From Dethiobacter alkaliphilus AHT 1 (GTDB lineage Bacteria; Bacillota; Dethiobacteria; Dethiobacterales; Dethiobacteraceae), in the NCBI RefSeq assembly GCF_000174415.1, contig NZ_ACJM01000016.1, forward strand, positions 1 through 55,374: 55,374 nt of DNA. The letters run 5' to 3'. The first letter of the stretch is position 1; every line of letters starts with the position of its first letter. The notes under the pieces are model-generated. The model searched no databases. It saw nothing but the letters and a program-made list of their open reading frames with translations, and was not told where the DNA came from. Shown in pieces: positions 18,611-42,390 of the stretch. Both the position numbers and the translations under genes were made by a program.

Positions 18611-18622
18611 CTGTTTTCCCCC

Positions 18623-20048: not shown

Positions 20049-20081
20049 CAATCCCACTCCGTTCTCCGCTTGGGTTAGTAT

Positions 20082-20801: not shown

Positions 20802-20814
20802 ACCATCTCTCCCG

Positions 20815-21474: not shown

Positions 21475-21493
21475 GTGCTACCACCACCGGATC

Positions 21494-25528: not shown

Positions 25529-25544
25529 CCTTTCCAGTTAAAAA

Positions 25545-26621: not shown

Positions 26622-27382
26622 TAAAACAGATTGAACAGATGGATAATATCCTCCTGCATCCGGGCAAACACCGTCTCCAGCACCTGTGCCAGGTAAGGAA
26701 ATATCAGATAAATAATGAATAAAGCAACTCCCACCTTTAACGGCATCCCCACCATAAAAACATGGAGCTGAGGGACCGTCTTGGATAGCAGACCCAATGC
26801 CAGGTCACTGAAAATCAATACCGCCACCACCGGCACCGCCAACTGAAAAGCAATGATAAACATCTGAAAAATAAACTGCATTACATTAGGTATCAGCTGC
26901 GGAGAAAATACCACTCCGCCGGGAGTCACCAGCTCTATGGAGCGGGCTATGGCCATAAACAGCATATGGTGCCCGTTTACTGTCAGGTAAAATACCAGGG
27001 CAAACAAGTAGTAAAACTGCCCAAACAACGTAACCTGGCTGCCAAACTGCGGATCAAACACCGAAGCCATCATCAGGCCCGCCTGCACATCCACCATCTG
27101 GCCGGCAATGCGGGCCGCAGCAAAAATCAGCAGCACCAGAAAACCCAAAGCCAGACCAAAGAGCACCTCCGAGCCCACCGCCAACACATAATAATAAAAA
27201 TGCTCCGGAATCTCAAACTCCTGCGGTGAAGAGGCCAGAAAAATCAGGTAGGCAAAAACCCCGGCAAAGCCGATTTTAGGCAGGGCGGGGATCCCGCGCC
27301 AGGTGAAAAAGGGAAGCACCGCTATCAATGCGCTGAGACGGACAAAGATAAGAAACAGGACGGACCATTGCTCTAAAACCAT
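26621..27382 (-). CDS. fliR: Flagellar export protein FliR
   Basis: The 253-aa protein has about six membrane helices (LFLIFVRLSALIAVLPFFTWRGIP at the N-terminus, ELVTPGGVVFSP in mid-protein, and AVPVVAVLIFSDLALGLLSKTVPQLHVFMVGMPLKV, the family signature). It is part of the FliPQR export pore. It starts at ATG 27382 and its stop shares a base with the presumed flhB start. Confidence 0.95.
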   Translation of the reverse strand: MVLEQWSVLFLIFVRLSALIAVLPFFTWRGIPALPKIGFAGVFAYLIFLASSPQEFEIPEHFYYYVLAVGSEVLFGLALGFLVLLIFAAARIAGQMVDVQAGLMMASVFDPQFGSQVTLFGQFYYLFALVFYLTVNGHHMLFMAIARSIELVTPGGVVFSPQLIPNVMQFIFQMFIIAFQLAVPVVAVLIFSDLALGLLSKTVPQLHVFMVGMPLKVGVALFIIYLIFPYLAQVLETVFARMQEDIIHLFNLF

Positions 27383-27391
27383 AATCTCATC

Positions 27392-27661
27392 CTACAGACC
27401 AAACGTTCCCAGCTGGGCAAACAGATTGGCGGTAAACTGTACCAGCGTATTTAGCATCCAGCTGCCAAACACCAGCAGGGCCAGAAAAACAGCAATGATT
27501 TTGGGGACAAAGGTCAGCGTCTGCTCCTGAATCTGGGTTGTGGCCTGAAAAACACTGATGCCCAGCCCCACCAACAGGCTGATGATCAGGACGGGGGCAG
27601 CAATAAACAATGTGGTTAAAATCGCGTCTCTGGCCACAGACAAAACAAATTCGTGTGACAT
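27392..27661 (-). CDS. fliQ: Flagellar export protein FliQ
   Basis: The 89-aa protein has two membrane helices (AILTTLFIAAPVLIISLLVGLGISVFQATTQIQEQTLTFVPK and FLALLVFGSWML), which match FliQ along its whole length. It is a pore subunit with FliP and FliR. GGGAGG precedes ATG 27661. Confidence 0.95.
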   Translation of the reverse strand: MSHEFVLSVARDAILTTLFIAAPVLIISLLVGLGISVFQATTQIQEQTLTFVPKIIAVFLALLVFGSWMLNTLVQFTANLFAQLGTFGL

Positions 27662-27676
27662 TTTTTCCTCCCGTCT

Positions 27677-28450
27677 TTAACCGAAACTTTCCACCAATGA
27701 TTTGACCACCAGATGCCAGCCGTCAACCATCACAAACAACAGCAGCTTAAAGGGCAGAGAAACCATCACCGGCGGCAGCATGAACATCCCCATGGACATC
27801 AGGGTGCTGGCCACCACCATATCAATAATTACAAAGGGGATAAAAAGCATAAATCCCATCTGAAATGCTGTTTTCAATTCGGAAATTACAAAGGCGGGCA
27901 CCAGTACATGCATGGGCACATCATCCCGGGTCTCGGGGCGCTCGCCGTTGGAGATGTTTACAAACAAAGCCAGATCCTTTTCCCGGGTCTGGTGAAACAT
28001 GAACTCCCGCAGCGGTTGTGCACCGATGGCCAACGCCTCTTCCTGGGTTATTTCCTCCTCCAGGTAGGGTTGAATAGCGGTCTCGTTAACCTGGGTGTAA
28101 ATCGGAGCCATGATGAAAAAAGTAAGAAACAGTGCCAAGCCGATAATCACCTGGTTGGGCGGTGTCTGCTGCGTGGCCAGCGCGTTGCGCACAAAACCCA
28201 GCACCACCACAATCCGCGTAAAAGAGGTCATCAGAGCCAGAAAGGCCGGCACTAAAGTAAGCACCGTCAATAACATTAAAAGTTGTAAGGAACCCACCAC
28301 CTGCTCCGGTTCCGTTGCAGTCCCGATATCAATATTTACATTAGTAGGGAAAGGCAGGGGCTCCGCGCCCAGGCGGGACGGCAAAAACAGTATCCCTATA
28401 AACAAAACCGCGCTAAGAGCGGTAATTATCCTCCGGTTGGCCATGGTCAT
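27677..28450 (-). CDS. fliP: Flagellar export protein FliP (intact copy)
   Basis: The 257-aa protein has a probable signal-type N-terminus, then LTLVPAFLALMTSFTRIVVVLGFVRNALATQQTPPNQV, a periplasmic stretch at about 115-190, and the C-terminal VPAFVISELKTAFQMGFMLFIPFVIIDMVVASTLMSMGMFMLPPVMVSLPFKLLLF. This is the core pore subunit. ATG 28450 lies inside the end of fliO. A broken second copy lies at 28855-29360. Confidence 0.95.
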   Translation of the reverse strand: MTMANRRIITALSAVLFIGILFLPSRLGAEPLPFPTNVNIDIGTATEPEQVVGSLQLLMLLTVLTLVPAFLALMTSFTRIVVVLGFVRNALATQQTPPNQVIIGLALFLTFFIMAPIYTQVNETAIQPYLEEEITQEEALAIGAQPLREFMFHQTREKDLALFVNISNGERPETRDDVPMHVLVPAFVISELKTAFQMGFMLFIPFVIIDMVVASTLMSMGMFMLPPVMVSLPFKLLLFVMVDGWHLVVKSLVESFG

Positions 28451-28841
28451 TTTCCGTGTCTTTCCTTTCCTGCACACGCCCGGAGCGCTCTTTGAGCTGG
28501 CTGCGGAACATGTTCACCTTGTCTTTGCTCTTAGCAAGAATTTCTGCAAAATCGGGAGGATCCGGCGGTTCCGTACCGCTTTCCGGCAAATCTTCTTCAC
28601 TAACCTCGGCCAGATATTCCATACTGGCCGGCGTTACACCAATTAAAAAGTAGCGCTCACCCACTTTTACCAGGCACAGGCTGGTGCGCATCCCCAAAGA
28701 TACGCGCTCGATTACAGTCATGGCGCCGGTCCGGGCAGGAGTAAGGGTTTGCAGCCGCGGCAGCAGGTAGCGAATACTCCACCAGGCCAAAAATATTACC
28801 ACCGCCAAAGCCAGCATCATTTTTATGGCCTCAATAAACAT
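28413..28841 (-). CDS. fliO: Flagellar export assembly protein FliO (intact copy)
   Basis: The 142-aa protein has one N-terminal membrane helix (MMLALAVVIFLAWWSIRYLLPRL) and a small FliO domain (TVIERVSLGMRTSLCLVKVGERYFLIGVTPASMEYLAEV), with a charged tail. FliO aids assembly of the FliP ring. Its start follows GAAGGAGTAAGCAA. That stretch also precedes the damaged copy, so the duplication carried the ribosome site with it. It overlaps fliP. Confidence 0.92.
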   Translation of the reverse strand: MFIEAIKMMLALAVVIFLAWWSIRYLLPRLQTLTPARTGAMTVIERVSLGMRTSLCLVKVGERYFLIGVTPASMEYLAEVSEEDLPESGTEPPDPPDFAEILAKSKDKVNMFRSQLKERSGRVQERKDTENDHGQPEDNYRS

Positions 28842-28854
28842 TTGCTTACTCCTT

Positions 28855-29360
28855 CTGTTTTCAATTCGGAAATTACAAAGGCGGGCACCAGTACATGCAT
28901 GGGCAAATCATCCATGGTCTCGGGGCGCTCGCCGTCGGAGAGGTTTACAAACAAAGGTAAGACCTTTTCGGTGGTTTGTTGAACCATGAACCTTTCCAGG
29001 GGGGGTGAGCGGGTGGCCAACGCGTATTCGGAGGTGATCTCGTCCTCCAGGGATGGTAGAATAGCGGTTTCGTTAACGCGGGAGTAAATAGGAGCCATGA
29101 TGAAAAAAGTAAGAAACAGTGCCAAGCCGATAATCACCCGGTTGGGCGGTGTCTGCTGCGTGGCCAGCGCGTTGCGCACAAAACCCAGCACCACCACAAT
29201 CCGCGTAAAAGAGGTCATCAGAGCCAGAAAGGCCGATATCAATATTTACATTAGTAGGGAAAGACAGGGGCTGCGCGCCCAGCGCGGGACGGCAACAACA
29301 GTATCCCTATAAACAAAACCGCGGTTAGAGCGGTAATTATCTTCCGGTGGCCATGGTCAT
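28855..29360 (-). pseudogene. fliP: fliP remnant from a tandem duplication
   Basis: This is a second fliP lacking its C-terminal third. It stops at SELKT, where the sequence jumps into the leader of the intact fliO (junction near 28855). A 77-base stretch present in the intact copy (28245-28321) is missing near 29235, which shifts the frame. From 29242 to 28860 a frame stays open and reads ISAFLALMTSFTRIVVVLGF onward, but about 28905-29090 differs from the intact copy at many codons. It cannot make a working FliP. Confidence 0.85.
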
Positions 29361-29750
29361 TTTCGTGTCTTTCCTTCCTGCACACGCCCGGAGCGCTCTT
29401 TGAGCTGGCTGCGGAACATGTTCACCTTGTCTTTGCTGTTAGCAAGAATTTCTGCAAAATCGGGAGGATCAGCCGGTTCCGTACCGCTTTCCGGCAAATC
29501 TTCTTCACTAACCTCGGCCAGATATTCCATACTGGCCGGCGTTACACCAATTAAAAAGTAGCGCTCACCCACTTTTACCAGGCACAGGCTGGTGCGCATC
29601 CCCAAAGATACGCGCTCGATTACAGTCATGGCGCCGGTCCGGGCAGGAGTAAGGGTTTGCAGCCGCGGCAGCAGGTAGCGAATACTCCACCAGGCCAAAA
29701 ATATTACCACCCGCCAAAGCCAGCATCATTTTTATGGCCTCAATAAACAT
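29357..29750 (-). pseudogene. fliO: fliO remnant from a tandem duplication
   Basis: It is nearly identical to the intact fliO, but an extra C at about 29709-29712 (ACCACCCGCC against ACCACCGCC) shifts the frame after codon 14, and a one-base loss near 29373 shifts the 3' end. It keeps the native junction with fliN2. The original order was therefore fliN2-fliO-fliP, and this is the upstream, decayed half of the repeat. Confidence 0.85.
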
Positions 29751-29754
29751 TTGC

Positions 29755-30207
29755 TTACTCCTTCTTTGGCGGATTGGCGGATGAGCCACCCACTTCCGCC
29801 ACACGGAAGCCAAAATTATCGTTTATTACCACCACTTCCCCGGAAGCCAGAGGCTTACCGTTCACACACAGGGCGGCATTCTCCCCGGCCAGTTTGTCCA
29901 AACGGATGATGGAGTCTTTTTGCAGCGCCAGAATTTCCCTCACCGTCAGTGTGGCTGCCCCTAACTCCAAATCCAGGGTTACCGGAACGGACTCAAAAAA
30001 GTTTACCCCCCGTTCCTTCGCCCCTTGTGGCGCCTGAACAAACTCAGGAAATTCCACCCGCTCCACCTCTTCTGCCGGAGCCGCCGGAGGTTCCTCCTGC
30101 TTTGGCTGGGAACCCTCTTTCTCCTGCTTTACTTCATCGGCCAAATCCGGATGGAGCCGGTCTATTAGTTTTTCAATCTCTTGTTGGGATAAAAATGAAG
30201 ATGACAT
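29755..30207 (-). CDS. fliN: FliN-like flagellar switch protein (second copy)
   Basis: The 150-aa protein begins MSSSFLSQQEIEKLIDRL, again a FliM-like CheY-binding peptide. A Pro/Glu-rich linker follows, then a SpoA domain at about 75-140 (NFFESVPVTLDLELGAATLTVREIL, ASGEVVVINDNFGFRVAEV). It stands where single-FliN species have fliN, before fliO-fliP-fliQ-fliR. It is only weakly like the first FliN and FliY, so the three are not recent copies. Confidence 0.88.
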   Translation of the reverse strand: MSSSFLSQQEIEKLIDRLHPDLADEVKQEKEGSQPKQEEPPAAPAEEVERVEFPEFVQAPQGAKERGVNFFESVPVTLDLELGAATLTVREILALQKDSIIRLDKLAGENAALCVNGKPLASGEVVVINDNFGFRVAEVGGSSANPPKKE

Positions 30208-30228
30208 ACATTGCCTCCGTTGACCAGT

Positions 30229-30708
30229 TTATTGCACCAGAAAATCGGTAAAATAAATCTCTACGATTTCACCGCCGCTTAAAACAGAATTTACTTCTTC
30301 AATCAGCTCACCGCGCAGTTTCTCTGTCCCATCTCCGTCACTAACATCGTTCACAGCTTTACTGCGCATTGTGTTAATAATCAGGTCACGGATTTGCGCT
30401 TTACGCTCCTCCAACTCCCCTGCCAGGCGCCTTTCCTCATAGGCAAGAGTGATGGTGGCTTTGAGGTAATTGCGCTGGCCGCTGTCGGAGAGATTAACGG
30501 TAAAATCCAGCGGGCCAAACTGACGAAATGGCCCGGCCACTTCTTCTTCAGCCTGCGCGCCGCCGCCAAACAGCGGTTCTTCTCTGTCCGCCAGCAATGC
30601 ATAAACGCTGATTACCACACCCATCAGAGCCAGGACGGCCACTATGGCCAGCAACAGGTTAGTGCGACTGCCCTTTTTGGGGGCACTGTTTTCTTCAGCC
30701 TTACTCAT
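30229..30708 (-). CDS. fliL: Flagellar basal-body protein FliL
   Basis: The 159-aa protein has a short basic start, one membrane helix (LLLAIVAVLALMGVVISVYALL) and the periplasmic FliL domain (FTVNLSDSGQRNYLKATITLAYE, IYFTDFLVQ at the end). It surrounds and supports the stator. ATG 30708 follows GGGAGG and overlaps the motB stop by eight bases. Confidence 0.93.
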   Translation of the reverse strand: MSKAEENSAPKKGSRTNLLLAIVAVLALMGVVISVYALLADREEPLFGGGAQAEEEVAGPFRQFGPLDFTVNLSDSGQRNYLKATITLAYEERRLAGELEERKAQIRDLIINTMRSKAVNDVSDGDGTEKLRGELIEEVNSVLSGGEIVEIYFTDFLVQ

Positions 30709-31438
30709 AATAATCAACCTCCCGGTCCAACAGGTTTACTTCAGATATTACAATATTTACGCGACGGTTTTTAGCACGCCCCTGCACTGTCTCGTTGGAA
30801 GCCACCGGCTGAAACTCACCGTACCCGGTGGCTAAAAAACGCTCCGGATCGATGTCCTGCCGTTCGCTAAGGTAACGCACCACCCGCACAGCGCGGTCCA
30901 CCGACAGTTCCCAGTTGGAAGGGTATTGTGCCGTTTGAATCGGCACGTTGTCTGTGTGGCCCTCCACAATGATCTGGTTTGGTACATTGGCTAAAATCCC
31001 CGCCACCTTTACCAGCAACTCCCGGGCCTCAGGCCTGATTTCCGCCCGCCCGGTATCAAAAAGCAGCCGGTCCTGTATTTCCAGCACCACGCCCCGGTCT
31101 TCAATACGGACGTCGATAATATTGGCCAGGCCCTCTTCCTGCAGATGGCTTTTTACCTCCAGGTAAGTCATCAGCACATCCTCAAACTTATGGTCCACCG
31201 CCAGTTCAATCATTTCACCGCGGCTGGGGTCCAAAGACGACTCCATGATACCGTCCTGGCCAAGAAACGACACCTGAATGGAGGACATAATCTGCTGAAA
31301 CTTGATCACATCAATCACCGAATAAGAAAAGAGCAGGACAAAGAAGGCCAAAAGCAGTGTAACCATATCGCTGTAGGTGGTCATCCACTCCGGCGCTCCG
31401 CCTTCCTGCCGGGGTTGGGCGTGCCTGCTTTTACGCAT
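30701..31438 (-). CDS. motB: Flagellar stator protein MotB
   Basis: The 245-aa protein has one membrane helix with the ion-binding Asp (APEWMTTYSDMVTLLLAFFVLLFS). An OmpA-like peptidoglycan-binding domain at about 115-235 has IIVEGHTDNVPIQ and NWELSVDRAVRVVRYL. It anchors the stator to the wall. Whether protons or sodium drive it cannot be told with certainty from this helix alone. ATG overlaps the motA stop. Confidence 0.94.
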   Translation of the reverse strand: MRKSRHAQPRQEGGAPEWMTTYSDMVTLLLAFFVLLFSYSVIDVIKFQQIMSSIQVSFLGQDGIMESSLDPSRGEMIELAVDHKFEDVLMTYLEVKSHLQEEGLANIIDVRIEDRGVVLEIQDRLLFDTGRAEIRPEARELLVKVAGILANVPNQIIVEGHTDNVPIQTAQYPSNWELSVDRAVRVVRYLSERQDIDPERFLATGYGEFQPVASNETVQGRAKNRRVNIVISEVNLLDREVDYYE

Positions 31439-32258
31439 GGTCGTAAATCACTTCCTCACCGGCGGTATCCGGCGTTTCCGACTGCCTGGCCATCTCTTCA
31501 CGCTGCGCCGGTGATGCAAAGGCTTTCATCTTCTCCTGCAGAATTCTGGGGTTGGTACCGGCCTGAATAGCCAGAACGCCTTCCACCACCGCCTCTTTCT
31601 GGGCAATCTCCGCATCGCTGCGGATGGCCAGTTTACCCGCCAGCGGGTTAAACAGCAGGTTGGCCAACAGCGCACCGTAAAAAGTGGTGAGCAAAGCAAC
31701 GGCCATCCCGGGCCCAATGGCGCTGGGATCGTCCAGGTTGGCCAGCATCTGAATCAGGCCAATCAGTGTCCCAATCATACCAAAGGCCGGCGCCAACGCC
31801 CCCCAGGTCTTAAACAGGTCCTGACCCATTCTGTGCCGGGCCACGGTGGCGGTAATTTCCGTATCCATAATGTCGCGAATCAATTCCGGCTCCAGACCGT
31901 CGATGACCATCTGGAGGCCGTTGCCCAAAAACGGGTCTTCCAGGTCATTTAAGTCATCCTCCAGAGCAAGGAGCCCTTCACGGCGGGCTTTCTGACCCAG
32001 GTCCACAAATACACTAATCAGCTCGCCAATGTCCTGAACTTCCTGCTGGAAAGCATTTTTTGTGACCCCATAAACCATGGTGATCTGGGGCAGCTGAAAA
32101 TTAACGAGCAGCGCCGCAAAAGAGCCCCCCACCGTAATCATTATGGAATTCAAACTCCAGAACATGGCCACGCTGCCGCCCAGGGCTATAGCCCCCATTA
32201 CCAGGGACAGGCCCAGGCCTATCCCCAGTATGGTCAAAAAATCCATGCGCTGCTGCAT
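31431..32258 (-). CDS. motA: Flagellar stator protein MotA
   Basis: The 275-aa protein has four membrane helices. The cytoplasmic loop carries LEDDLNDLEDPFLGNGLQMVIDG. The conserved GTLIGLIQMLANLDDPSAIGPGMAVALLTTFYGALLANLLFNPLAGKL contains the Pro residues of the channel. It forms the stator with MotB. The ATG at 32258 follows GTGAGGTG. Confidence 0.94.
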   Translation of the reverse strand: MQQRMDFLTILGIGLGLSLVMGAIALGGSVAMFWSLNSIMITVGGSFAALLVNFQLPQITMVYGVTKNAFQQEVQDIGELISVFVDLGQKARREGLLALEDDLNDLEDPFLGNGLQMVIDGLEPELIRDIMDTEITATVARHRMGQDLFKTWGALAPAFGMIGTLIGLIQMLANLDDPSAIGPGMAVALLTTFYGALLANLLFNPLAGKLAIRSDAEIAQKEAVVEGVLAIQAGTNPRILQEKMKAFASPAQREEMARQSETPDTAGEEVIYDHA

Positions 32259-32278
32259 ATTACGTCACCTCACGTATG

Positions 32279-33505
32279 TTACCGCTTAAGATTCACCACT
32301 TCCTGCAACAAATCATCCGATGTGGTAATTACCCGCGAGTTGGCCTGAAATCCCCGGGAAGTGGTAATCATCTCTGTAAACTCGTAGGACAGATCCACGT
32401 TTGACATTTCCAGGGTGCCTGTTTCAATGACACCGCGCCCTTCCAACCCGGCACCACCTACACGAGCCTGCCCCGAATTGGATGAAACCTGATACATATT
32501 CCCGGCTGCTTTCATTAGCCCTTCCGGATTATCAAAAGATGCCAGTGCAATCTGGCCTAACTCTACCACCAAGCCATTGGTATATATTCCACTGATAACA
32601 CCTGTTTTGCCGATGGTAAACTCAGTCAGTTCCCCGGCAGGAAAACCGTCTTGGTAGCGAACCTGAGCGTTGCTATGCCCTACCACCTGCGACATATTGT
32701 TAAAATCCACCGCCATACTAATATCGTCGGCACCGTCTATATCTGTGATGCTGATGGCTGCATCGCCGGTGGCTTGAAGCAAGTTGCCAAACTCATCAAA
32801 TTCAATGGTTCCCTGGCCGGAAACAGTTTCGTTGCCGGTGATCCCGCTGGCTTCCCATTCCCAGGTATTAGACCCGGTCTTTGTAAAGATGATTTCCACC
32901 AGATGCGACCCACCCTGGGAGTTGTAGACTAATGACTCGGCCATATGCTCTGTTCCTATTTCTGCCAGAGAATCCAAGTTCGAACTGAAAGTCAGGTTCT
33001 CGGTAGCTCTGGTGGTAACGTTGTGGCCCAGCGGTATATTTAATGGCTGCAGCGGCCCGTTGGTATTGATATTGCCAAAAGCATCTGCCTGCCACCCCAG
33101 CGGTTTGAACCCGTTGGCGCCGTTTACCAAATCACCGTCCGAACCAAGAGAAAACGCACCGTCACGACTGTAGAACTCGTTTGCACCATCACTCATCACA
33201 AAAAAACCGCTTCCCTGGATGGCCAAATCGGTTGGACGGCCGGTGCTTTGCAAGCTACCTGGAGTATGTATGGTATCAATAGATGCTACACTCATACCCA
33301 ATCCTACCTGCGCCGGGTTAATTCCCCCACGTCCATCCTGGGGGGCGCTGGCACCCCGGATATTCTGGCTCAGAATATCCTGAAACCGGACCCTGCCGGC
33401 TTTAAAAGCGGTGGTGTTCACATTGGCAATGTTATTGCCAATCACATCCATCTTGGTCTGATGGTTACGCAATCCGGACACGCCGGTAAATAATGATCTT
33501 TGCAT
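32279..33505 (-). CDS. flgE: Flagellar hook protein FlgE
   Basis: The 408-aa protein has the rod/hook N-terminus (MQRSLFTGVSGLRNHQTKMDVIGNNIANVNTTAFKAGR), GRPTDLAIQGSGFFVM, an insert with FlgE-type beta domains in mid-protein, and the C-terminus GTLEMSNVDLSYEFTEMITTSRGFQANSRVITTSDDLLQEVVNLKR. It builds the hook. AAGGAGG precedes its ATG. The small FlbD/SwrD gene that often follows flgE is not seen. Confidence 0.95.
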   Translation of the reverse strand: MQRSLFTGVSGLRNHQTKMDVIGNNIANVNTTAFKAGRVRFQDILSQNIRGASAPQDGRGGINPAQVGLGMSVASIDTIHTPGSLQSTGRPTDLAIQGSGFFVMSDGANEFYSRDGAFSLGSDGDLVNGANGFKPLGWQADAFGNINTNGPLQPLNIPLGHNVTTRATENLTFSSNLDSLAEIGTEHMAESLVYNSQGGSHLVEIIFTKTGSNTWEWEASGITGNETVSGQGTIEFDEFGNLLQATGDAAISITDIDGADDISMAVDFNNMSQVVGHSNAQVRYQDGFPAGELTEFTIGKTGVISGIYTNGLVVELGQIALASFDNPEGLMKAAGNMYQVSSNSGQARVGGAGLEGRGVIETGTLEMSNVDLSYEFTEMITTSRGFQANSRVITTSDDLLQEVVNLKR

Positions 33506-33587
33506 AAAAGATGACCTCCTTTAATTTGAGGGATTGGCCGCTTCAATCGGTCCGCAGCCTGTGGCTTCCTCTCTGAGGTCCAGCCAC

Positions 33588-33977
33588 TTATTTAATAATT
33601 ACTGCACTGTCAATGTTGGTAAATACATGCTCCCGCATATCTTCGCCGCCCATGGCGGTGATGATGGTACGGTTCTTTACACTGGCCACCAACGCCAGAT
33701 CATCGTAAAGCAACAGGGAAGAACGGGCACCCTTTTTGTCCGCCGCATTGACCGCCTGGTTAATCTTGGCCAACTCTCCTTCTCCCAGTTCAATTCTTCT
33801 GTCCTGCAGCCGCTGCATGGCGTGAGCCGAGAATTTAACATCGGTCTGCTTTTGCAGTGTTTCCTGCCAGACCTGGGAAAAAGGCGAAACATCGGGAGTC
33901 TTCTTTTTTACCGGCGATGTACCGGGTTTAGGCTGGCTTATCGGTTGTCCCGGAAAACGAATATCCCCTGTGTTCAT
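33588..33977 (-). CDS. Flagellar operon protein, TIGR02530 family
   Basis: The 129-aa protein has a disordered Pro-rich start and a conserved second half (VKFSAHAMQRLQDRRIELGEGELAKINQAVNAADKKGARSSLLLYDDLALVASVKNRTIITAM). It fits the TIGR02530 family, which lies between flgD and flgE in Firmicutes. The role is unknown; a hook-assembly aid is often supposed. The ATG follows GGTGGTGAG at the end of flgD. Confidence 0.85.
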   Translation of the reverse strand: MNTGDIRFPGQPISQPKPGTSPVKKKTPDVSPFSQVWQETLQKQTDVKFSAHAMQRLQDRRIELGEGELAKINQAVNAADKKGARSSLLLYDDLALVASVKNRTIITAMGGEDMREHVFTNIDSAVIIK

Positions 33978-33979
33978 CA

Positions 33980-34405
33980 CTACTCACCACCTGCTGTTAC
34001 TTTCTGCACACTCTCCAGTCCGTAGCGGTTACCGTCAATTACTAACCGGGGTTTACCGTTATCGTATTCCACTGCACTGACAATTCCTGTAAGCGGCAAT
34101 CCATTATCGTCTTTTACAGTAACGGAAAGGCCGAGAAAAGCCGGTGCGGAATTATGGAGACTGCTTTGGATGTCAAGAAGTTTTGCCATGGTATTGTTTA
34201 AGTTCTGCATTTGCTCCAACGAGGTAAACTGCGCCATCTGTGCCACAAACTCGCTGTTGTCCTGCGGGTCCAGCGGATCCTGATAACGGAGTTGCGTAAC
34301 CAATAGCTGCAAAAACATATCTTTGTCCATTTCCTGCATAGCACCTGTAGCTTTATTGCTTTGTTGCGTGGCAGCGGTGGTACCGGCTGCTGAAACAGTT
34401 GTCAT
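33980..34405 (-). CDS. flgD: Hook assembly scaffold FlgD
   Basis: The 141-aa short-form FlgD has the N-terminal motif MDKDMFLQLLVTQLRYQDPLDPQDNSEFVAQMAQFTSLEQMQNLN and a small C-terminal domain (GLSVTVKDDNGLPLTGIVSAVEYDNGKPRLVIDG). It caps the growing hook. Its length matches other Firmicutes rather than the longer proteobacterial form. Confidence 0.94.
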   Translation of the reverse strand: MTTVSAAGTTAATQQSNKATGAMQEMDKDMFLQLLVTQLRYQDPLDPQDNSEFVAQMAQFTSLEQMQNLNNTMAKLLDIQSSLHNSAPAFLGLSVTVKDDNGLPLTGIVSAVEYDNGKPRLVIDGNRYGLESVQKVTAGGE

Positions 34406-34420
34406 TTCCTCACCTCCAGA

Positions 34421-35641
34421 CTAGGCCCGCATGTCCAACGCTCCTGGAATCAGAACGGCAGACGGCGGTATTTCCTCCACAGCTTCTACCGGTAAAACAT
34501 CTCCGCCTCCGGCTTGGGTTTGCCGGAAATCATGGAAACCGCTACCCTGGCGGGAGCTTTGTTCCTGATTAACGGTGACGGTCATTTCAGCCACGTTAAT
34601 CTGCTGCGCCTCCAGACGCTGGCGTAATTGATTCAGAGCTCCGTCCAGAGTTTCTTTTACCTGAGCATTCTCCGTAAGAATATTGGCCACAAGTCGCCCT
34701 TCTTCCATACGCAGCCTCACTTCCACCTCTCCTAGCACTGCGGGACGCAACCGGACAAACAGCGTTGACTCTCCCTGGGGCTCTTTAACCAACAGCATTT
34801 TCTCCAGAACCTGCTCCACCACAGCGGCACGGCTGACCTGTGCTTTGTCGGAGTTATAAGACGCGGTCTGCACCAGTGACCTGAATGGATCATGTTCCAC
34901 AAGCGGACGCTGTACATGCTCAGAAGACAGCTCGGTGGCATTCTTGCTTTTTACTCCTGAGGAATCTTCACCGGAAACCTGCTTAAATGCCAAGTTTGCG
35001 CCGAGACGCTCCGCAGCAAGAATATTGCTATCCCGTTCTCCAACCGGTCTTACTAATTGCGCTCCGTTTTTTTCATTATCGGAACCCTCTGCGACTTCAA
35101 CATCCTGTTGCAAAACAGCCTTAGCATCCTGCATGGACATTCCAGACGCAAGCTTTTCCGCCTGGTTACCCTTCTGCCCAACCGGCTCTAAGCTTTCCGC
35201 CCCTTCTTCCATAATAGCTTGGGGAACTTCTGCAACTGCAACCAACTTATCAGCAACATCTGAGGCCTCCAAAGCATCGGAGCTTACAGCAACTTCCAAT
35301 AACTGCTCCACAGGAGCCTGGGCCATAAATGCCAGAAGATCAGGGTACATGTCAAGCTCATGGTTCTCCTCAGCCATGCCCTCTAAATCCGTTTGTTCGC
35401 CTGCCAACTGTGGCATGAGGGCCATAACAAGGTACGGCAAAACTGCGGAATCCTGCTCTTCTTTTCCTGCCATTTGCAGTCCCAGCATGGCCTGTGCCGG
35501 ATCAAATTCCTCTGACTGCTGCAGCATAGCCAGCAGCCCGGCAAAGCCAATCTGCGGTGCACCTTCTTCCCGGTTCTGTCCCGCTGCGGTTGCCTGAGCC
35601 TTTAAAAGCGGCGCAAGTAACGGCAGCATACCTGCCTCCAT
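34421..35641 (-). CDS. fliK: Hook-length control protein FliK
   Basis: The 406-aa protein has a long, poorly conserved acidic N-terminal part and the Flg_hook domain at about 290-370 (STLFVRLRPAVLGEVEVRLRMEEGRLVANILTENAQVKETLDGALNQLRQRLEAQ). It measures the hook and triggers the FlhB switch. ATG 35641 has AAGGAGG eight bases upstream; ATG 35647 and GTG 35650 are in frame too. Confidence 0.9.
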   Translation of the reverse strand: MEAGMLPLLAPLLKAQATAAGQNREEGAPQIGFAGLLAMLQQSEEFDPAQAMLGLQMAGKEEQDSAVLPYLVMALMPQLAGEQTDLEGMAEENHELDMYPDLLAFMAQAPVEQLLEVAVSSDALEASDVADKLVAVAEVPQAIMEEGAESLEPVGQKGNQAEKLASGMSMQDAKAVLQQDVEVAEGSDNEKNGAQLVRPVGERDSNILAAERLGANLAFKQVSGEDSSGVKSKNATELSSEHVQRPLVEHDPFRSLVQTASYNSDKAQVSRAAVVEQVLEKMLLVKEPQGESTLFVRLRPAVLGEVEVRLRMEEGRLVANILTENAQVKETLDGALNQLRQRLEAQQINVAEMTVTVNQEQSSRQGSGFHDFRQTQAGGGDVLPVEAVEEIPPSAVLIPGALDMRA

Positions 35642-35676
35642 CTTCATCACCTCCTTTCTTGGAATTAGATGGTTAT

Positions 35677-36123
35677 TTAAGAAGGCTTCACATGATACAA
35701 ATGCATGAAGCGCGCCATCTCATCGTTTTGTCTCTGCTCTTCCAGTTTCGTTTCCTGCTGGTAGCGCCACTGGCCTTTATCCCGCAGAGAATCCATAACT
35801 TTTCTCTCCTGCATAGCTTTTTCCGTCAACTGAACCTGTTCTTGCAGACGTGAGTCAAGCTGTTCCACAGCCTGCTTTTGCTCCTTAATGCGATGGGCCA
35901 GATGCAAAGAATATTCCCCGGCCATCAGGGCCTGCGGCACATTTATCTTTTTGGTTTGCTCAGCCGCAGCTTTTGCCTGCATACCTGCCAGGTCCTCCTG
36001 CAATGTAACTAAATTTTCTTTTGCCGTATCCCGCTCCCGGAAGGCCTGGTTTAGGCGGAGCTGCTCTTCTTCCTCTTTGCGTTTGCGGTAGTCCAAAACT
36101 TTCTGCAGGGGAAAAACGTACAT
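35677..36123 (-). CDS. fliJ: Flagellar export protein FliJ
   Basis: The 148-aa almost wholly helical coiled-coil protein starts MYVFPLQKVLDYRKRKEEEEQLRLNQA, as FliJ does. It links the FliI ATPase to FlhA. It follows fliI by seven bases. The residues of the coil are rich in Gln, Glu and Lys. Confidence 0.9.
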   Translation of the reverse strand: MYVFPLQKVLDYRKRKEEEEQLRLNQAFRERDTAKENLVTLQEDLAGMQAKAAAEQTKKINVPQALMAGEYSLHLAHRIKEQKQAVEQLDSRLQEQVQLTEKAMQERKVMDSLRDKGQWRYQQETKLEEQRQNDEMARFMHLYHVKPS

Positions 36124-36130
36124 CAGTCAC

Positions 36131-37450
36131 TCACTCCTTTTTAAAAAGGTGCTTGAGCTTGTCCAACGCCTGTTCATAAGGATCACACTCATTCACATCC
36201 TGCCGCAAAAACGTGTGCATCGCCGTTATATACTGACGGGCCCGGTCTACCCGGGGATTGGTGCCGTCTACGTAAGCACCTATATTAATCAAATCCTCCG
36301 CCTCGGCATAGGCGGACAGGTAATCACGAAACTGTCCGGCCAATTTCCTGTGTTCTTCACTGGCCAATTCCGTCATCAGGCGGCTGATACTTTTACCGAC
36401 ATCGATGGCGGGAAAATGGTTTTTGGCCGCCAAATCCCGGGTAAGCACGATATGGCCGTCCAAAATACCACGCACCGCATCGGCCACCGGCTCATTAAAG
36501 TCATCACCGTCAACCAGTACGGTGTACAGCCCGGTAATGGAACCGGACCGCGAAGTCCCGGCTCGTTCCAACACTCTTGGCAGAAGAGCAAACACCGACG
36601 GCGTATAACCCTTGGTAGTTGGCGGTTCACCGATGGCCAGCCCCACTTCCCGCTGGGCCATGGCCAACCGGGTCACCGAATCCATCATCAGCATCACTTT
36701 TTTACCCTGATCCCGGAAATATTCGGCGATGGCGGTGGCCACCAGGGCTCCTTTAATTCTTAAAAGGGGTGGGCGGTCCGAAGTTACCGCCACCACCACG
36801 GAACGGGCCAGCCCTTCCTCGCCCAGATCCCGTTCTATAAAGTCCACCACTTCCCGGCCCCGCTCGCCAATCAGAGCAATAACGTTAATATCCGCTTCAC
36901 TGTGTTTGGCAATCATGCCCAGCATGGTGGATTTACCCACACCGCTGCCGGAAAAAATACCTATCCTCTGTCCCTGCCCGCAGGTCAGAAACATATCTAT
37001 GGCCCGGATTCCGGTGGGCAGCACTTCTTTGATACGCTGCCTCTCCAGCGGGTTGGGCGGATCATTGTCAACAGAACAAACTTTTCCGGCCCCGTTTATC
37101 CGGGCGCCGTCTAAAGGTACCCCCAGGCCGTCCAGCACATGGCCCAAAAGATGGGGTCCGGCTTTTACGGTAAACTCCCTGCCGGTGGGCAAAACCTCAC
37201 AACCGGGGCCTATGCCCCGCAGATCTCCCAAGGGCATCATCAGCACATGGCCGTTTTTAAAACCCACCACCTCGGCGGTGACCGGCTCCGCCTCCGGGGT
37301 CACATATATTAAACACATCTCCCCCACAAAAGCCTGCAACCCGCGCACTTCGATGGTCAGTCCCACCACTTGGGTCACCCTGCCAATCACCTTGGCCCGG
37401 GGGAAAGAAGATACTGCTTGTATGTAAGAAGATAAATCAAGTTTACTCAT
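36131..37450 (-). CDS. fliI: Flagellum-specific ATPase FliI
   Basis: The 439-aa F1-beta-like ATPase has GIFSGSGVGKSTMLGMIA (Walker A), VIALIGERGREVVDFIE, VMLMMDSVTRLAMAQREVGLAIGEPPTTKGYTPSVF (Walker B region) and GSITGLYTVLVDGDD. It powers early steps of export. It overlaps fliH by eight bases. Confidence 0.96.
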   Translation of the reverse strand: MSKLDLSSYIQAVSSFPRAKVIGRVTQVVGLTIEVRGLQAFVGEMCLIYVTPEAEPVTAEVVGFKNGHVLMMPLGDLRGIGPGCEVLPTGREFTVKAGPHLLGHVLDGLGVPLDGARINGAGKVCSVDNDPPNPLERQRIKEVLPTGIRAIDMFLTCGQGQRIGIFSGSGVGKSTMLGMIAKHSEADINVIALIGERGREVVDFIERDLGEEGLARSVVVAVTSDRPPLLRIKGALVATAIAEYFRDQGKKVMLMMDSVTRLAMAQREVGLAIGEPPTTKGYTPSVFALLPRVLERAGTSRSGSITGLYTVLVDGDDFNEPVADAVRGILDGHIVLTRDLAAKNHFPAIDVGKSISRLMTELASEEHRKLAGQFRDYLSAYAEAEDLINIGAYVDGTNPRVDRARQYITAMHTFLRQDVNECDPYEQALDKLKHLFKKE

Positions 37451-38219
37451 TGGATGTCACATCCAACAAGGTCTCACGCAATTTGGCAAATCGTTCATCC
37501 AACATGCATTCAATGGCGGCGCCGCTGGTTTCCACCCTGCAGTGTCCCCGGGCAACAGCACCGTCAGCCAAAAAGCTCAAAGAACTGTGCTCCCGCAACT
37601 CAGCCTGCAGTTCAGCCGCCTTGTCCCGGCAGAGCGGCACATCATCAGGATGAAGGCGTATCAGGATATCTCCCGACTCTTTAACCTGCTGCAAAAGCTC
37701 CCGTACCATGGAAACCACCGTTTCCGGCTCCTCCGACAGCTGCCGGCTCACCAGTTTTTCTGCGATGCATACCGCCAGCTCCACCACCTGCGGCTCCACA
37801 GCCTCCAGCATTTCAGAGCGTATTCTTCTGGTTTCGGCCAGCAATTCCTCAGCTTCACGCTGCATCCTGCTACCCTCACGCTGGCCGGCGGCCATGCCTT
37901 CCAGATAACCGGTATCATAGCCGCGCTGCTTAGCGCCCTCCTCCAGCTCCAGCACCTGCATCTCTGCTTTTTTACGGAGCTCTTCACATTCCTGTCCCGC
38001 AGCGGCCAGAATCTCCTCCCGCTCACGCCGGGCTGCTGCTACTATTTCAGCCGCCTCCGCCTGCGCATCATGGAGCACCTGGGCACCCGGCGCTTCAGGC
38101 ACCGCCGTCTGGCTCTTTGGCTCAGCTGAACCGGCGGCGTGAAAATAAGCGGGTAAACGCAAAACGCCACCATTTAGTTTCACACTATCAGCCTTGAGTA
38201 CACTAGACAATGATGGCAT
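37443..38219 (-). CDS. fliH: Flagellar export ATPase regulator FliH
   Basis: The 258-aa protein has a long Ala/Glu-rich coiled coil at about 45-130 (AQAEAAEIVAAARREREEILAAAGQECEEL) and the FliH C-terminal domain (VVELAVCIAEKLVSRQLSEEPETVVSMVRELLQQV, VETSGAAIECMLDERFAKLRETL). It holds FliI and docks it to FliN. ATG 38219 has GGTGGTG upstream; two GTG codons at 38228 and 38225 are alternatives. It overlaps fliG. Confidence 0.92.
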   Translation of the reverse strand: MPSLSSVLKADSVKLNGGVLRLPAYFHAAGSAEPKSQTAVPEAPGAQVLHDAQAEAAEIVAAARREREEILAAAGQECEELRKKAEMQVLELEEGAKQRGYDTGYLEGMAAGQREGSRMQREAEELLAETRRIRSEMLEAVEPQVVELAVCIAEKLVSRQLSEEPETVVSMVRELLQQVKESGDILIRLHPDDVPLCRDKAAELQAELREHSSLSFLADGAVARGHCRVETSGAAIECMLDERFAKLRETLLDVTSNE

Positions 38220-39210
38220 CTTCACCACCCCGCGAAATAATTATTTCACCGGTCTCGTCAAGCTTGCGAATGATACTGACGATCCGCTGCTGCCCTTCTT
38301 CCACTTCACGCAATCTGACCGGACCCATGAAGTCTATATCCTCGCGCAGCATTTCTGCAGCGCGCTTGGAAACATTTTTGAATACTCTTTCCCGCACTTC
38401 ATCACTGGAGCCCTTAAGTGCCAGAGCCAGGTCTTTTTGATCCACTTCACGGATAATCCGCTGAATAGAGGCATCGTCCAACGAAATGATATCTTCAAAA
38501 ATAAACATCCGCTTGCGAATTTCGTCCACCAGCTGCGGGTCGTCTTTCTCCAACTCTTCTAAAATCAGCTTTTCTGTGCCACGATCAACATTGTTTAAAA
38601 TATCCACCAAGGCCTGAATCCCGCCTGCTGAAGCAAAATCCTGCTGTACCACGGTGGAAAGCCGCTCTTTTAGAACGCCCTCCACCTCCTTTAACACTTC
38701 CGGAGAAGTTCTGTCCATCACCGCAATGCGGCGGGCAATCTCAGACTGCTGTTCATCGGGCAGCTCCGATATTACCATGGAGGCCTGCTGCGGTTCCAGA
38801 TAGGATAATATCAGCGCAATGGTCTGGGGATGTTCCTGACTAATCAGATTGGTAAGCTGCTTAGGGTCAGCCTTGCGCACAAACATAAAAGGCTTAATCT
38901 GTGATGCTTCCCGCAGCTTCTTGATTATTTCTCCGGCCTTTTTCCCCCCCAATGTTTCTTCCAGCAATGTTTGGGCATATTCCAGGCCACCGTCAAGCAT
39001 ATAACGCTGAGCCTGGCTTAAAAGTAAGAATTCATCCAACACATCTTCAATGGATGAGACATCCACCTGTGTGGTATTGGCAATTTCCAACGAGATACGC
39101 TCGATATCATTTTCGCTGAAATGCTTCAGGATATTGGCAGACACAGTAGGCCCCAACGCCATTAATAAGATTGCTGATTTTTTTATACCGTTTACTTTAG
39201 CGCGTGCCAA
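38203..39210 (-). CDS. fliG: Flagellar motor switch protein FliG
   Basis: The 335-aa protein has all three FliG domains. The C-terminal one carries the charged torque helix (ALALKGSSDEVRERVFKNVSKRAAEMLREDIDFMGPVRLREVEEGQQ), and the middle EHPQTIALILSYLEPQQAS motif is present. It contacts MotA and couples stator motion to rotation. Length is standard. Confidence 0.96.
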   Translation of the reverse strand: MARAKVNGIKKSAILLMALGPTVSANILKHFSENDIERISLEIANTTQVDVSSIEDVLDEFLLLSQAQRYMLDGGLEYAQTLLEETLGGKKAGEIIKKLREASQIKPFMFVRKADPKQLTNLISQEHPQTIALILSYLEPQQASMVISELPDEQQSEIARRIAVMDRTSPEVLKEVEGVLKERLSTVVQQDFASAGGIQALVDILNNVDRGTEKLILEELEKDDPQLVDEIRKRMFIFEDIISLDDASIQRIIREVDQKDLALALKGSSDEVRERVFKNVSKRAAEMLREDIDFMGPVRLREVEEGQQRIVSIIRKLDETGEIIISRGGEDAIIV

Positions 39211-39221
39211 AAAAATCTCCC

Positions 39222-40781
39222 CTATTCTTCGGCGAGCCAGGCTCGAATCAAATGAGCAACCGATTCGGGTTCCCTCTCGGCCAAATCACGAACTCGTTTA
39301 TGCAGGCGCTGCTGAGGCGTCTCTTCCATTTCCTCCGCAGGCTCTTCTTGAATTTTTGGCGCACTAGCCAATGCAGCCAGCTCCGCCTCCAGCTGTCTTT
39401 CACGCCAGGCCCGGAAAGCACGCAAAATGACAAAAAAGATTATTATTGCAGCTAAAGCTATGGCCCCGATGGTAACATATCGTTCAATCATTTCCCTGCG
39501 AGCCGCTTCCTCCATGGCCAGCATGGCATCTTCCTGATGGGATGTATCAAAACTCATCCCCTGCACACTGATACTGTCGCCCCGTCCCACCTGATAGCCC
39601 AAGGCCGCCTCCACAGCCTCACTGATCTGTCGGACCTGCGCCTGAGACAGCTGACCGCCGTTATCATTTACCACAACGGAAGCATTGAGCTGCACCAGCT
39701 TTCCCGGAGCCCGGATTTGCCTTTCCGTTGTTTCGTTAATTTCATAGTTTGTGGTTTCATCATAACGCTCATATGTAGAGTCACCGGTACCACCGACCCA
39801 CGGATATCCGGGAATGTTACTGTCTGCTCCCGCCTCACCGGGTACCACGCCGGCTCCTTCAAAATATTCCTCGGTAATTGTCTGGCTGCGCGGCACACCC
39901 TCGCTATCAAAGGTAATAACGGTGGACTCATGGGAATCAAAGTCCAAATCTGCGGTTATCATGGCAATGGCCTGTCCCGGACCTAAAATACGCTCCAGCA
40001 TCACCTGTACACGCCGTTCCAGTTCTTTTTCAAAGGAGCGTTTAATATCCAACTGCGCCATGGTGGCTTCCGCCAACTGCTTCGTGGGATCCAGATTATC
40101 CAGCTGGTCACTGAGAATGTTCCCTGTGGTGTCAATCACCGTAACATTTTCCGGCCGCATATTCTCCACACTACCGGCCACCAGATGCACAATACCGCGC
40201 ACCCGCTCCGAATCCAAACGCGAAACAGGACTCAAAGCCAGCACGATGGAGGCGGAGGGCTCCGCCGAATCCTGGATAAAGACACTGGGCTCAGGAAGTG
40301 CCAGATGTACCCGTGCCTGCTCCACTTCATCCAGACGGACAATGGTCCGGCGCAGCTCTTCCTGCAAAGCGCGCAGATAATCCATTCGTCTGTTGAAATC
40401 CGTGGCGCCCAGATTTGTCTGGTCAAACAGCTCAAAACCACTGCCGCCACCGATATTTAATGACTCATCGCTTGCCAGTTGAATCCTTACATCATCCACC
40501 ATGTCCTGTCGGACCAAAATAGTTCTTCCTTCATCATCAAGGGAGTACTGCACATTCATTTCCTGCAATCTGGCTGCAATTCGCCCCGCATCCACCGGCT
40601 CCAACCCGGTAAATAACAATGCCATGCGCGGCCGGGCAATGGCCTGTCCCAGGAAAAAGAGAGTAACTATAATGGCAACGGCCATAACTATGGCCGCTAT
40701 TTTTTTGCGTTGGCTCAGCTGCTGCCATTTCTCCGGCAAATCCTGCACCCTAACTGCTGTCGCACGCTCCTCTTCGGCCAA
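39222..40781 (-). CDS. fliF: Flagellar MS-ring protein FliF
   Basis: The 519-aa protein has an N-terminal membrane helix (IAAIVMAVAIIVTLFFLGQAIA), the secretin-like periplasmic domains (LFTGLEPVDAGRIAARLQEMNVQYSL; ARVHLALPEPSVF), a second helix near 445-465 and a C-terminal FliG-binding tail. It forms the MS ring, the base of the motor. The start is TTG 40781 behind GGGTGGAG. Confidence 0.95.
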   Translation of the reverse strand: MAEEERATAVRVQDLPEKWQQLSQRKKIAAIVMAVAIIVTLFFLGQAIARPRMALLFTGLEPVDAGRIAARLQEMNVQYSLDDEGRTILVRQDMVDDVRIQLASDESLNIGGGSGFELFDQTNLGATDFNRRMDYLRALQEELRRTIVRLDEVEQARVHLALPEPSVFIQDSAEPSASIVLALSPVSRLDSERVRGIVHLVAGSVENMRPENVTVIDTTGNILSDQLDNLDPTKQLAEATMAQLDIKRSFEKELERRVQVMLERILGPGQAIAMITADLDFDSHESTVITFDSEGVPRSQTITEEYFEGAGVVPGEAGADSNIPGYPWVGGTGDSTYERYDETTNYEINETTERQIRAPGKLVQLNASVVVNDNGGQLSQAQVRQISEAVEAALGYQVGRGDSISVQGMSFDTSHQEDAMLAMEEAARREMIERYVTIGAIALAAIIIFFVILRAFRAWRERQLEAELAALASAPKIQEEPAEEMEETPQQRLHKRVRDLAEREPESVAHLIRAWLAEE

Positions 40782-40853
40782 CCGTCTCCACCCCCCGGGT
40801 CAACAAAAAATACGTAACTTTATATAAAAAACAAAAACGATTTAGCAAAGTAT

Positions 40854-41153
40854 TTATAACTGCATCCTGGAAACTTCCTGGTAAGCCTCCACAACCTTAT
40901 TTCTCACCTGGACCGTCAGCTGCATGGCCATTTTTGCCTGCTCCATGGCAATCATCACCTGATGAATATCTTCCGCTTCACCCATGGCCAGTTTCTGTGC
41001 CGCTTCATCGGCATTAACCTGCAACTGGTTTACTTCTCCCAACGCCTTATGTAAAGTCCCGGCAAAACCTTCCGCCGCCTTTGTCTCCGGTGCCGCTGCA
41101 GCAGGCTGCTGCCACTGAAGGGGAATAAAAGGGTTTAATACCTGAGTCTTCAT
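40854..41153 (-). CDS. fliE: Flagellar hook-basal body protein FliE
   Basis: The 99-aa protein's second half has the FliE signature (FAGTLHKALGEVNQLQVNADEAAQKLAMGEAEDIHQVMIAMEQAKMAMQLTVQVRNKVVEAYQEVSRMQL). It joins the MS ring to the rod. Its N-terminal part is Pro/Gln/Ala-rich. It lies between flgC and fliF as in Bacillus; the 72 bases before fliF hold no further feature I can name. Confidence 0.94.
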   Translation of the reverse strand: MKTQVLNPFIPLQWQQPAAAAPETKAAEGFAGTLHKALGEVNQLQVNADEAAQKLAMGEAEDIHQVMIAMEQAKMAMQLTVQVRNKVVEAYQEVSRMQL

Positions 41154-41161
41154 CTAATCAC

Positions 41162-41572
41162 CTACCCTCTGCCGATTTCCAATGCTTTGAGAAACATGTT
41201 CTTGGAAGCATTCAGCGCCGTCACATTGGCTTCATAAGCCCGGGTGGCGGTAATCATATCCACCATTTCCTGCACTATGTTTACATTGGGGTAAGCTACG
41301 TAACCCTCTTCATTGGCATCGGGATGCTCCGGCTCATAAACCAGCCGGGGCTCTGTGTTATCCACACTTACACCCTGAACCCGCACGCCCTGGCCGGACT
41401 TCCTGGCGCCGTCCATCACTTCAGCAAACACTGCCGACTTGCGCTGATAAGGCCCACCGTCTTCGGTCCTGGTGGTATGGGCATTGGCAATGTTATTGGC
41501 AATCAGATCAAGGCGAAAACGCTCTGCGGTCAACCCGGAAGATGACACATTCATAGCCTTAAAAATCTGCAT
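41162..41572 (-). CDS. flgC: Flagellar rod protein FlgC
   Basis: The 136-aa proximal rod protein starts MQIFKAMNVSSSGLTAERFRLDLIANNIANAHTTRT. The central GVSVDNTEPRLVYEPEHPDANEEGYVAYPNVN is characteristic of FlgC, and the C-terminus follows the rod pattern (VQEMVDMITATRAYEANVTALNASKNM). It is two bases from flgB. Confidence 0.95.
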   Translation of the reverse strand: MQIFKAMNVSSSGLTAERFRLDLIANNIANAHTTRTEDGGPYQRKSAVFAEVMDGARKSGQGVRVQGVSVDNTEPRLVYEPEHPDANEEGYVAYPNVNIVQEMVDMITATRAYEANVTALNASKNMFLKALEIGRG

Positions 41573-41574
41573 TA

Positions 41575-41988
41575 TTACCGCCTCCCTTCATGGATTACAT
41601 ACCGCAACAAACTGTAGCGCTCGTTAAGAACCTGAGTCATAGCATTATAATTAAGCTGGTTAGTGGCCATAAGCGCCATCTCACGGTCAATATCCACATT
41701 GTTCCCGTCTGAGCGCATGGCCGAACTGCGGTCCGTACTTACCTTATGCCCTACATCCTGCAGGCTCTTCTGTCCCCCCACATGCCTTTCATGCGTGGTG
41801 GCCAGCGGCAGCCTGCTTGGCGCGGCAAGCGCCTGTCGCAGCTGCTTTTCAAAAGAAACATCCTGTCGTTTAAACATGGGAGTATTTACATTGGCCACAT
41901 TATGGGCCATCACCCGGTTACGCTCCCCGGCAGCATCCAGCCCTTTTTGCAGGGATACCGTTGCATTATCCGTCCATAAGCTGTTCAA
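41575..41988 (-). CDS. flgB: Flagellar rod protein FlgB, first gene of the fla/che operon
   Basis: The 137-aa rod protein has the N-terminal LQKGLDAAGERNRVMAHNVANVNTPMFKRQDVSFEKQLRQAL and a C-terminal NNVDIDREMALMATNQLNYNAMTQVLNERYSLLRYVI. It follows AAAGGAGG. Its 400-base leader holds the c-di-GMP-I riboswitch and a terminator, so flgB and all genes downstream should be under c-di-GMP control. Confidence 0.95.
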   Translation of the reverse strand: MNSLWTDNATVSLQKGLDAAGERNRVMAHNVANVNTPMFKRQDVSFEKQLRQALAAPSRLPLATTHERHVGGQKSLQDVGHKVSTDRSSAMRSDGNNVDIDREMALMATNQLNYNAMTQVLNERYSLLRYVIHEGRR

Positions 41989-42010
41989 TGAAATCCTCCT
42001 TTCCCAAAGA

Positions 42011-42037
42011 AAACCCTAGGGCACAGACCTAGAGTTT
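42011..42037 (-). terminator. Terminator hairpin of the c-di-GMP riboswitch
   Basis: A 10-bp stem (AAACTCTAGG, 42037-42028, with CCTAGGGTTT, 42020-42011, one G-U pair) has a 7-base loop. It is followed on the minus strand by TCTTT. It lies 15 bases past the riboswitch and 22 bases before flgB, which is the usual place for an expression platform. Confidence 0.75.
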
Positions 42038-42051
42038 AAGGTAACAGTGGC

Positions 42052-42126
42052 CGGCAACCCAGCCGCCATAGTCATTACAACCGTAGGCCTGTGGCTTTGC
42101 GTCCCCGCCTTTCGGCGAGTTTGCCT
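42052..42126 (-). promoter_or_regulatory. Cyclic di-GMP-I (GEMM-I) riboswitch upstream of flgB
   Basis: Read on the minus strand, all the class marks are in order. GGCAAAC comes first. Next is a helix closed by a GAAA tetraloop (CGCCGAAAGGCG). Then come GACGCAAAGCC, GGCCTA, a second helix ending CTATGGCGGC, and GGGTTGCC, which closes P1 with GGCAA. This matches the Vc2-type aptamer block for block. In C. difficile the same class before flgB turns the operon off when c-di-GMP rises; the direction here is inferred from the terminator that follows. Confidence 0.93.
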
Positions 42127-42249
42127 TTATTCGACATTTTTTCATTAATTTTGGGGATTTGAGTTTTCATGAACTTACTTTTCGCTAAATAATGTGAAAA
42201 TCCTGCAACAATATAAAAATAATGGCAACAAAAGTAGAAATAATTAACA

Positions 42250-42347
42250 TAATGTCGCCACTTCCCAAGTGGGACACGGGAACCCCTTACAAGGACAGGC
42301 AGCTCAACGGCAACTGCCTCACTTTCAAGCCACTTTGCCTGTTTTTT
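42250..42347. ncRNA. Compact structured region of unknown class, possible small RNA or second leader element
   Basis: Between AT-rich flanks lies a GC-rich stretch with several self-complementary pieces. CCACTT/AAGTGG (42258-42263 and 42267-42272) closes a 3-base loop. AGGCAG/CTGCCT pairs 42297-42302 with 42314-42319. The competing ACAGGCA/TGCCTGT pairs 42295-42301 with 42336-42342. AAGTGG can also pair with a second CCACTT at 42330-42335. On the plus strand the last stem is followed by TTTTTT (42342-42347). I do not recognise a named RNA class and cannot fix the strand. Confidence 0.4.
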
Positions 42348-42360: not shown

Positions 42361-42390
42361 AAAAAAAAGACAGCTAAGCTGCCTTTTTGC
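42361..42390 (-). terminator. Terminator after the FlgN-like gene
   Basis: The 6-bp hairpin GGCAGC/GCTGTC (42383-42378 with 42374-42369, loop TTA) is followed by nine T on the minus strand. It also has TTTTT on the plus side, so it may work both ways. It isolates the flgB leader from the sigma-D transcript upstream. Confidence 0.75.

Follow-up and report, generated by a model that had tools for sequence, protein, structure and literature searches.

Gene organization around flgB

The window (here, the whole stretch of 55,374 nucleotides that was analyzed) harbors a long array of flagellar genes on its minus strand, headed by flgB. From flgB to flgG, 31 closely spaced ORFs occupy about 24.2 kb; they were read as one unit from gene order and spacing. 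The unit's content comprises the basal body, the export apparatus, the motA/B motor, flhF, a flhG-like MinD protein, a YcgR-type PilZ protein, and FliA/sigma-D. The features that delimit and characterize it are as follows.

42364..42388, minus strand: terminator of the upstream flaG/flgN unit, separating flaG/flgN from the riboswitch unit
42176..42254 (approximate limits), minus strand: conserved block ATTATGTTAA...GCAGGATTTT...TTTAGCGAAAAGTAAG (alignment, three genera)
17831..41988, minus strand: predicted gated unit, flgB-flgC-fliE-F-G-H-I-J-K-flgD-flbD-like-flgE-motA-motB-fliL-fliN-fliO'-fliP'-fliO-P-Q-R-flhB-flhA-flhF-flhG-like-ycgR/PilZ-sigD-DUF6115-flgF-flgG (Pfam/NCBIfam, gaps)
41575..41988, minus strand: flgB, which heads the unit; TTG start at 41988 (TIGR01396, 114.6 bits; cut-off 59)
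20815..21474, minus strand: YcgR-type PilZ protein (PF12945 and PF07238)
20082..20990, minus strand: sigma-D/FliA, the putative link from the riboswitch to the late flagellar genes (TIGR02479, 244.7 bits; cut-off 189.6)
17740..17806, minus strand: terminator after flgG, end of the unit (67 nt, -30.2 kcal/mol, z -6.7, 0/200 shuffles)

The unit includes a partial tandem duplication of fliO-fliP (27677-29710, minus strand), in which an extra FliO and a shortened FliP precede the intact fliO-fliP. The shortened FliP (139 amino acids) is missing its C-terminal part; over 126 amino acids, it shares 82% identity with the intact copy.

An earlier note on this DNA had placed the "whole fla/che operon", nearly 30 kb of co-directional genes, behind the flgB leader. 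Past the flgG terminator, however, the order is a TPR gene, plus-strand fapA (15771-17255), a 145-bp divergent region, and fliM, and the cluster fliM-fliN-fliY-cheW-mcp-cheA-cheY-cheC-cheD-cheB-cheR starts from that divergent intergenic region of its own. On account of the terminator, the opposite-strand fapA and the separate region before fliM, we rejected the che genes as members of the flgB operon; thus, neither the gating of a whole fla/che operon nor the figure of nearly 30 kb is supported, the uninterrupted unit being that of 41988-17831. The same note had envisaged an operon longer than that of Clostridioides difficile, with the PilZ and che genes both inside. PilZ/YcgR does lie within the unit, but the che genes do not, and the length (~24 kb) is near the 23 kb of C. 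difficile. It could be argued that read-through extends the control by the switch to the fliM/che cluster: the cluster is further downstream on the same strand, and a promoter scan before fliM had no clear outcome. Yet transcripts would have to pass the strong flgG terminator and the opposing fapA, and would meet a cluster that has a 145-bp intergenic region to itself; we consider such read-through highly improbable. The gated unit would hence consist of flagellar structure, motor, sigma-D and the PilZ brake, leaving the chemotaxis genes out, unless they are affected indirectly.

A c-di-GMP-I aptamer in the flgB leader

An Rfam scan of the entire window gave a sole match, RF01051 (c-di-GMP-I), at 42135..42050 on the minus strand (79.4 bits; gathering score 35; E 5e-14). 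The alignment spans the full model, positions 1-87, with no broken or non-standard pairs; P2 with its GAAA tetraloop, P3 with its receptor region, and the conserved junction GACGCAAAGCC are all there. The earlier note had recognized a GEMM-I aptamer in this leader from the letters alone; each block that it named is found where it had put it, and the comparison with the RF01051 covariance model, which it had proposed as a check, bears the assignment out with a full-length match. Judged by its sequence, the element is a genuine riboswitch of the known c-di-GMP-I class, which would bind c-di-GMP. The leader is laid out as follows.

42050..42135, minus strand: c-di-GMP-I (GEMM-I) aptamer (RF01051, full length)
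42125, minus strand: G equivalent to Vc2 G20, model position 11 (sequence and RF01051 alignment)
42084..42093, minus strand: P3 5' strand CACAGGCCUA, common to aptamer P3 and the antiterminator (sequence, folds)
42022..42031, minus strand: switching strand UAGGUCUGUG, the 10-bp complement of the P3 5' strand (minimum-energy fold)
42011..42037, minus strand: intrinsic terminator hairpin AAACTCTAGG-tctgtgc-CCTAGGGTTT (fold -11.4 kcal/mol, z -3.3)
42006..42010, minus strand: U-rich terminator tail TCTTT (sequence)
41995..42002, minus strand: flgB ribosome-binding site AAAGGAGG, outside the terminator (sequence)

In the terminator stem, AAACTCTAGG (42037-42028) forms 10 pairs with CCTAGGGTTT (42020-42011) around a 7-nt loop; 2/200 shuffles folded equally well. 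The hairpin starts exactly 15 nt after GGGTTGCC, in agreement with the 10-bp stem that the earlier note had placed 15 bases on. The distance from the aptamer to the start codon is 61 nt. As the ribosome-binding site and the start of flgB are not part of the hairpin, control is most simply viewed as transcriptional.

A predicted antiterminator and its OFF logic

Folding of the leader without constraints yielded a minimum-energy structure that the earlier note lacks: an antiterminator. In this structure, CACAGGCCUA (42093-42084) pairs with UAGGUCUGUG (42031-42022) in a perfect, unbroken 10-bp helix. Because UAGGUCUGUG covers most of the terminator's loop together with the loop-proximal part of the 5' arm, and CACAGGCCUA belongs to P3, the antiterminator is incompatible both with the aptamer and with the terminator; the latter two can coexist in the folds. 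The mean pair probability of the terminator was 0.00 in the free leader vs. 0.94 when the aptamer was forced. When transcript length was scanned, the antiterminator came to dominate with the emergence of the switching strand, while the terminator's 3' arm was still incomplete: the pair probability of the antiterminator rose from 0.19 at 107 nt to 0.58 at 110 nt and 0.97 at 116 nt. A 10-bp match arose in 113/20000 shuffled platforms, and a separate test gave p 0.004.

Given that the antiterminator excludes both other structures, an OFF switch is predicted, and we hold it very probable that this element acts on the early flagellar operon as a c-di-GMP-I OFF switch of transcription. The earlier note had pointed to an off switch as a known theme at this place; the explicit 10-bp antiterminator backs that prediction, and the sign remains a predicted one. 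Without c-di-GMP, the P3 5' strand would pair with the switching strand, undoing the aptamer and blocking the terminator, and polymerase would continue into flgB...flgG, with sigD and the PilZ brake among the genes read. With c-di-GMP bound, the P3 strand would be kept in the aptamer; the switching strand, thereby freed, would enter the 10-bp terminator, and transcription would stop before flgB. Because sigD is inside the gated unit, we infer that late genes with sigma-D-type promoters would also drop when c-di-GMP is high. Sigma-D-like sites (at most one mismatch, 15-nt spacer) were found before flaG (43247, minus strand), upstream of flgK (44130, plus strand) and before a flagellin gene (52361, minus strand), which fits a putative cascade via sigD. 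The scan returned 29 such sites vs. 12.8 expected in shuffles, so that a single sigma-D-like site is no proof.

Could the same aptamer act as an ON switch, with the ligand favoring read-through? Such switches exist in the class, as in Bacillus thuringiensis Bc2 (PMC6366702) and in Geobacter pilM, a cGAMP relative (PMC9262584). An ON switch would need a terminator that consumes aptamer sequence, however, whereas the aptamer and terminator of the window do not overlap and the alternative pairing takes up parts of the aptamer and a terminator arm. This arrangement counts against an ON switch, which we regard as very unlikely.

c-di-GMP signaling in the genome

The genome from which the window derives (G000) contains 15 c-di-GMP riboswitches, 10 of class I and 5 of class II; these numbers are close to those of C. 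difficile 630, which has 12 c-di-GMP-I and 4 c-di-GMP-II riboswitches (PMC6366702). By eye, the first ORFs behind the other class I copies encode an HD-domain protein, a likely methyl-accepting protein and an apparent cell-wall-binding-repeat protein, among others. A domain search of the genome found 11 GGDEF domains, so c-di-GMP is plausibly made, and no EAL domains. In the window, an HD-type hydrolase domain is fused to GGDEF (47740-49428). In the collection of papers that was searched, none dealt with riboswitches in Dethiobacter.

These data also bear on the identity of the ligand. Changes in the pocket can switch GEMM-I specificity (PMC9262584, PMC6456294), so another cyclic dinucleotide, namely cGAMP, might be recognized, as in Geobacter GEMM-Ib. 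The G20 position is a factor in cyclic-dinucleotide selectivity, and a G is expected there for c-di-GMP rather than for cGAMP (PMC9262584). We assigned Vc2 G20 to model position 11 in this analysis; at that position (42125), the window has G, the c-di-GMP form. Together with the 11 GGDEF domains and the flagellar nature of the targets, this leaves cGAMP as an implausible ligand.

Conservation and variation among relatives

We examined 20 genomes from 12 genera of the Dethiobacter-like family, the named relatives including a Dethiobacter sp. MAG. c-di-GMP-I riboswitches occur in 19 of the 20. Leaders of flgB were assigned by matching aptamer positions to flgC matches; one genome (G001) was unreadable and was left out. 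An aptamer stands directly before flgB in 15 of the 19 readable leaders, window included, and in 10 of 11 genera. The four genomes of genus g5 had no riboswitch in their flgB leaders even at a permissive threshold, and no diverged copy was found in them. A TGTCGAA motif, which has the form of a Spo0A box, sits at the 5' edge of the window's aptamer (42136-42130, minus strand) and also in several of the riboswitch-free g5 leaders.

Nine leaders could be aligned (the window and eight others, from five genera). Their terminator arm ACTCTAGG is invariant, and the core pairing GGCCTA:TAGGCC is found in most of them. The full 10-bp antiterminator is confined to the window and G010, a member of a second genus whose own 10-bp pair, CGCGGGCCTA:TAGGCTCGTG, has changes in both strands (p<0.001); relative to the window, it has one A-U to G-C double change. 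Most other leaders have an antiterminator core of 4-6 bp that, taken singly, is not unusual. In the antiterminator register, 68.5% of alignment cells are paired vs. 9-37% in slid registers. Double changes in the aligned leaders were not above column shuffles, and covariation was weak beyond the 4-6-bp core; the covariation support is thus modest. In several relatives, the full-length leader favors the terminator at equilibrium even without ligand, in which case kinetics would have to matter.

The same comparison speaks to another alternative, that of a degenerate riboswitch without regulatory effect: there are non-functional copies in C. difficile (Cdi-1-4, 1-5, 1-7; PMC6200980), but the window's aptamer is full-length and high-scoring with all pairs intact, its platform is kept in several genera and the terminator arm does not vary, so we find this reading scarcely credible.

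Upstream of the aptamer, the conserved block at 42176..42254 is a probable promoter or regulatory region; a sigma-A promoter scan for the unit found no convincing site on the right strand. A block of ~75 bp, ATTATGTTAA..TTTCTACTTTT..GCAGGATTTT..TTTAGCGAAAAGTAAG, is kept whether or not a genus has the riboswitch (window and L125-L131). Because the block is present in either case, the riboswitch resembles a module that was acquired or dropped downstream of a promoter region that stayed in place.

Not all of the platforms are alike. In G005, G015 and G016 (L141, L139 and L138), the aptamer precedes flgB with expression platforms unlike that of the window. In G015, G016 and L154, no more than about 6 nt separate the aptamer from a U-run that follows it. 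Tandem c-di-GMP-I aptamers stand before flgB in L142 (G014) and in L154 (G087, from another family), apparently independently; the two copies in G014 hardly differ, and a terminator-like stretch comes after each of them. Outside the family, besides the tandem of G087, a c-di-GMP-I aptamer is found before flgB in G097 (L156). There is a small chance that a single family combines the same aptamer and flgB target with at least two unrelated platforms, such that the sign or mode of control in G005, G015, G016 and G087 might differ from OFF. If true, this locus would offer a natural set of cases in which the platform was replaced while aptamer and target stayed the same.

Other variants of the locus were also noted. 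In G093 (L155 2270-2353), a c-di-GMP-I aptamer precedes what reads as fliF rather than flgB. G010 has two flgB-flgC loci (contigs C30 and C91), of which one has the riboswitch and the other lacks it; the genome could contain two flagellar clusters or be contaminated (contamination is reported as 5%). In a Bacillota MAG that is more distant, the flgB leader (L020 2355-2444) matches the c-di-GMP-I-GGC variant family (RF03167).

Comparison with known flagellar and GEMM-I switches

The closest counterpart is Cd1 (Cdi-1-3) of C. difficile, located before a flgB operon that spans 23 kb, comprises 29 flagellar genes and contains sigD (PMC6200980, PMC6366702, PMC5386303, PMC9262584). Cd1 is an experimentally proven OFF switch in which c-di-GMP causes termination (PMC6366702, PMC6200980, PMC9262584), and the earlier note's statement that C. 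difficile has the same riboswitch class before flgB as an off switch agrees with these reports (PMC6366702, PMC6200980). The two systems share the aptamer class, the flgB target and a terminator before flgB. Their operons are of similar size (~24 kb and 31 ORFs in the window vs. 23 kb and 29 genes), both with sigD. The OFF sign, proven for Cd1, is predicted for the window.

There are also differences. The leader is shorter in the window than in C. difficile, where a 154-bp invertible segment follows Cd1 (PMC5386303). We found no inverted repeats of at least 12 bp here; with no such repeats and no room in the 61 nt, we rejected a C. difficile-like invertible flagellar segment. The Cd1 antiterminator has been described as using aptamer-stabilizing strand A (PMC9262584). 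Set against that description alone, the use of the P3 5' strand in the window suggests that the two switches differ in their choice of strand.

Bc1 and Bc2 of B. thuringiensis and the GEMM-I riboswitch of Geobacter pilM have the same aptamer fold and, like the window, terminator-based platforms. Their target genes are different, however; Bc2 and pilM have the opposite sign, and pilM senses cGAMP. For a c-di-GMP-I switch of the flgB type, the present analysis offers a concrete antiterminator, 10 bp long and built on the P3 5' strand, and the predicted switch would extend flagellar OFF control of the kind seen in C. difficile to Dethiobacter-like anaerobes.
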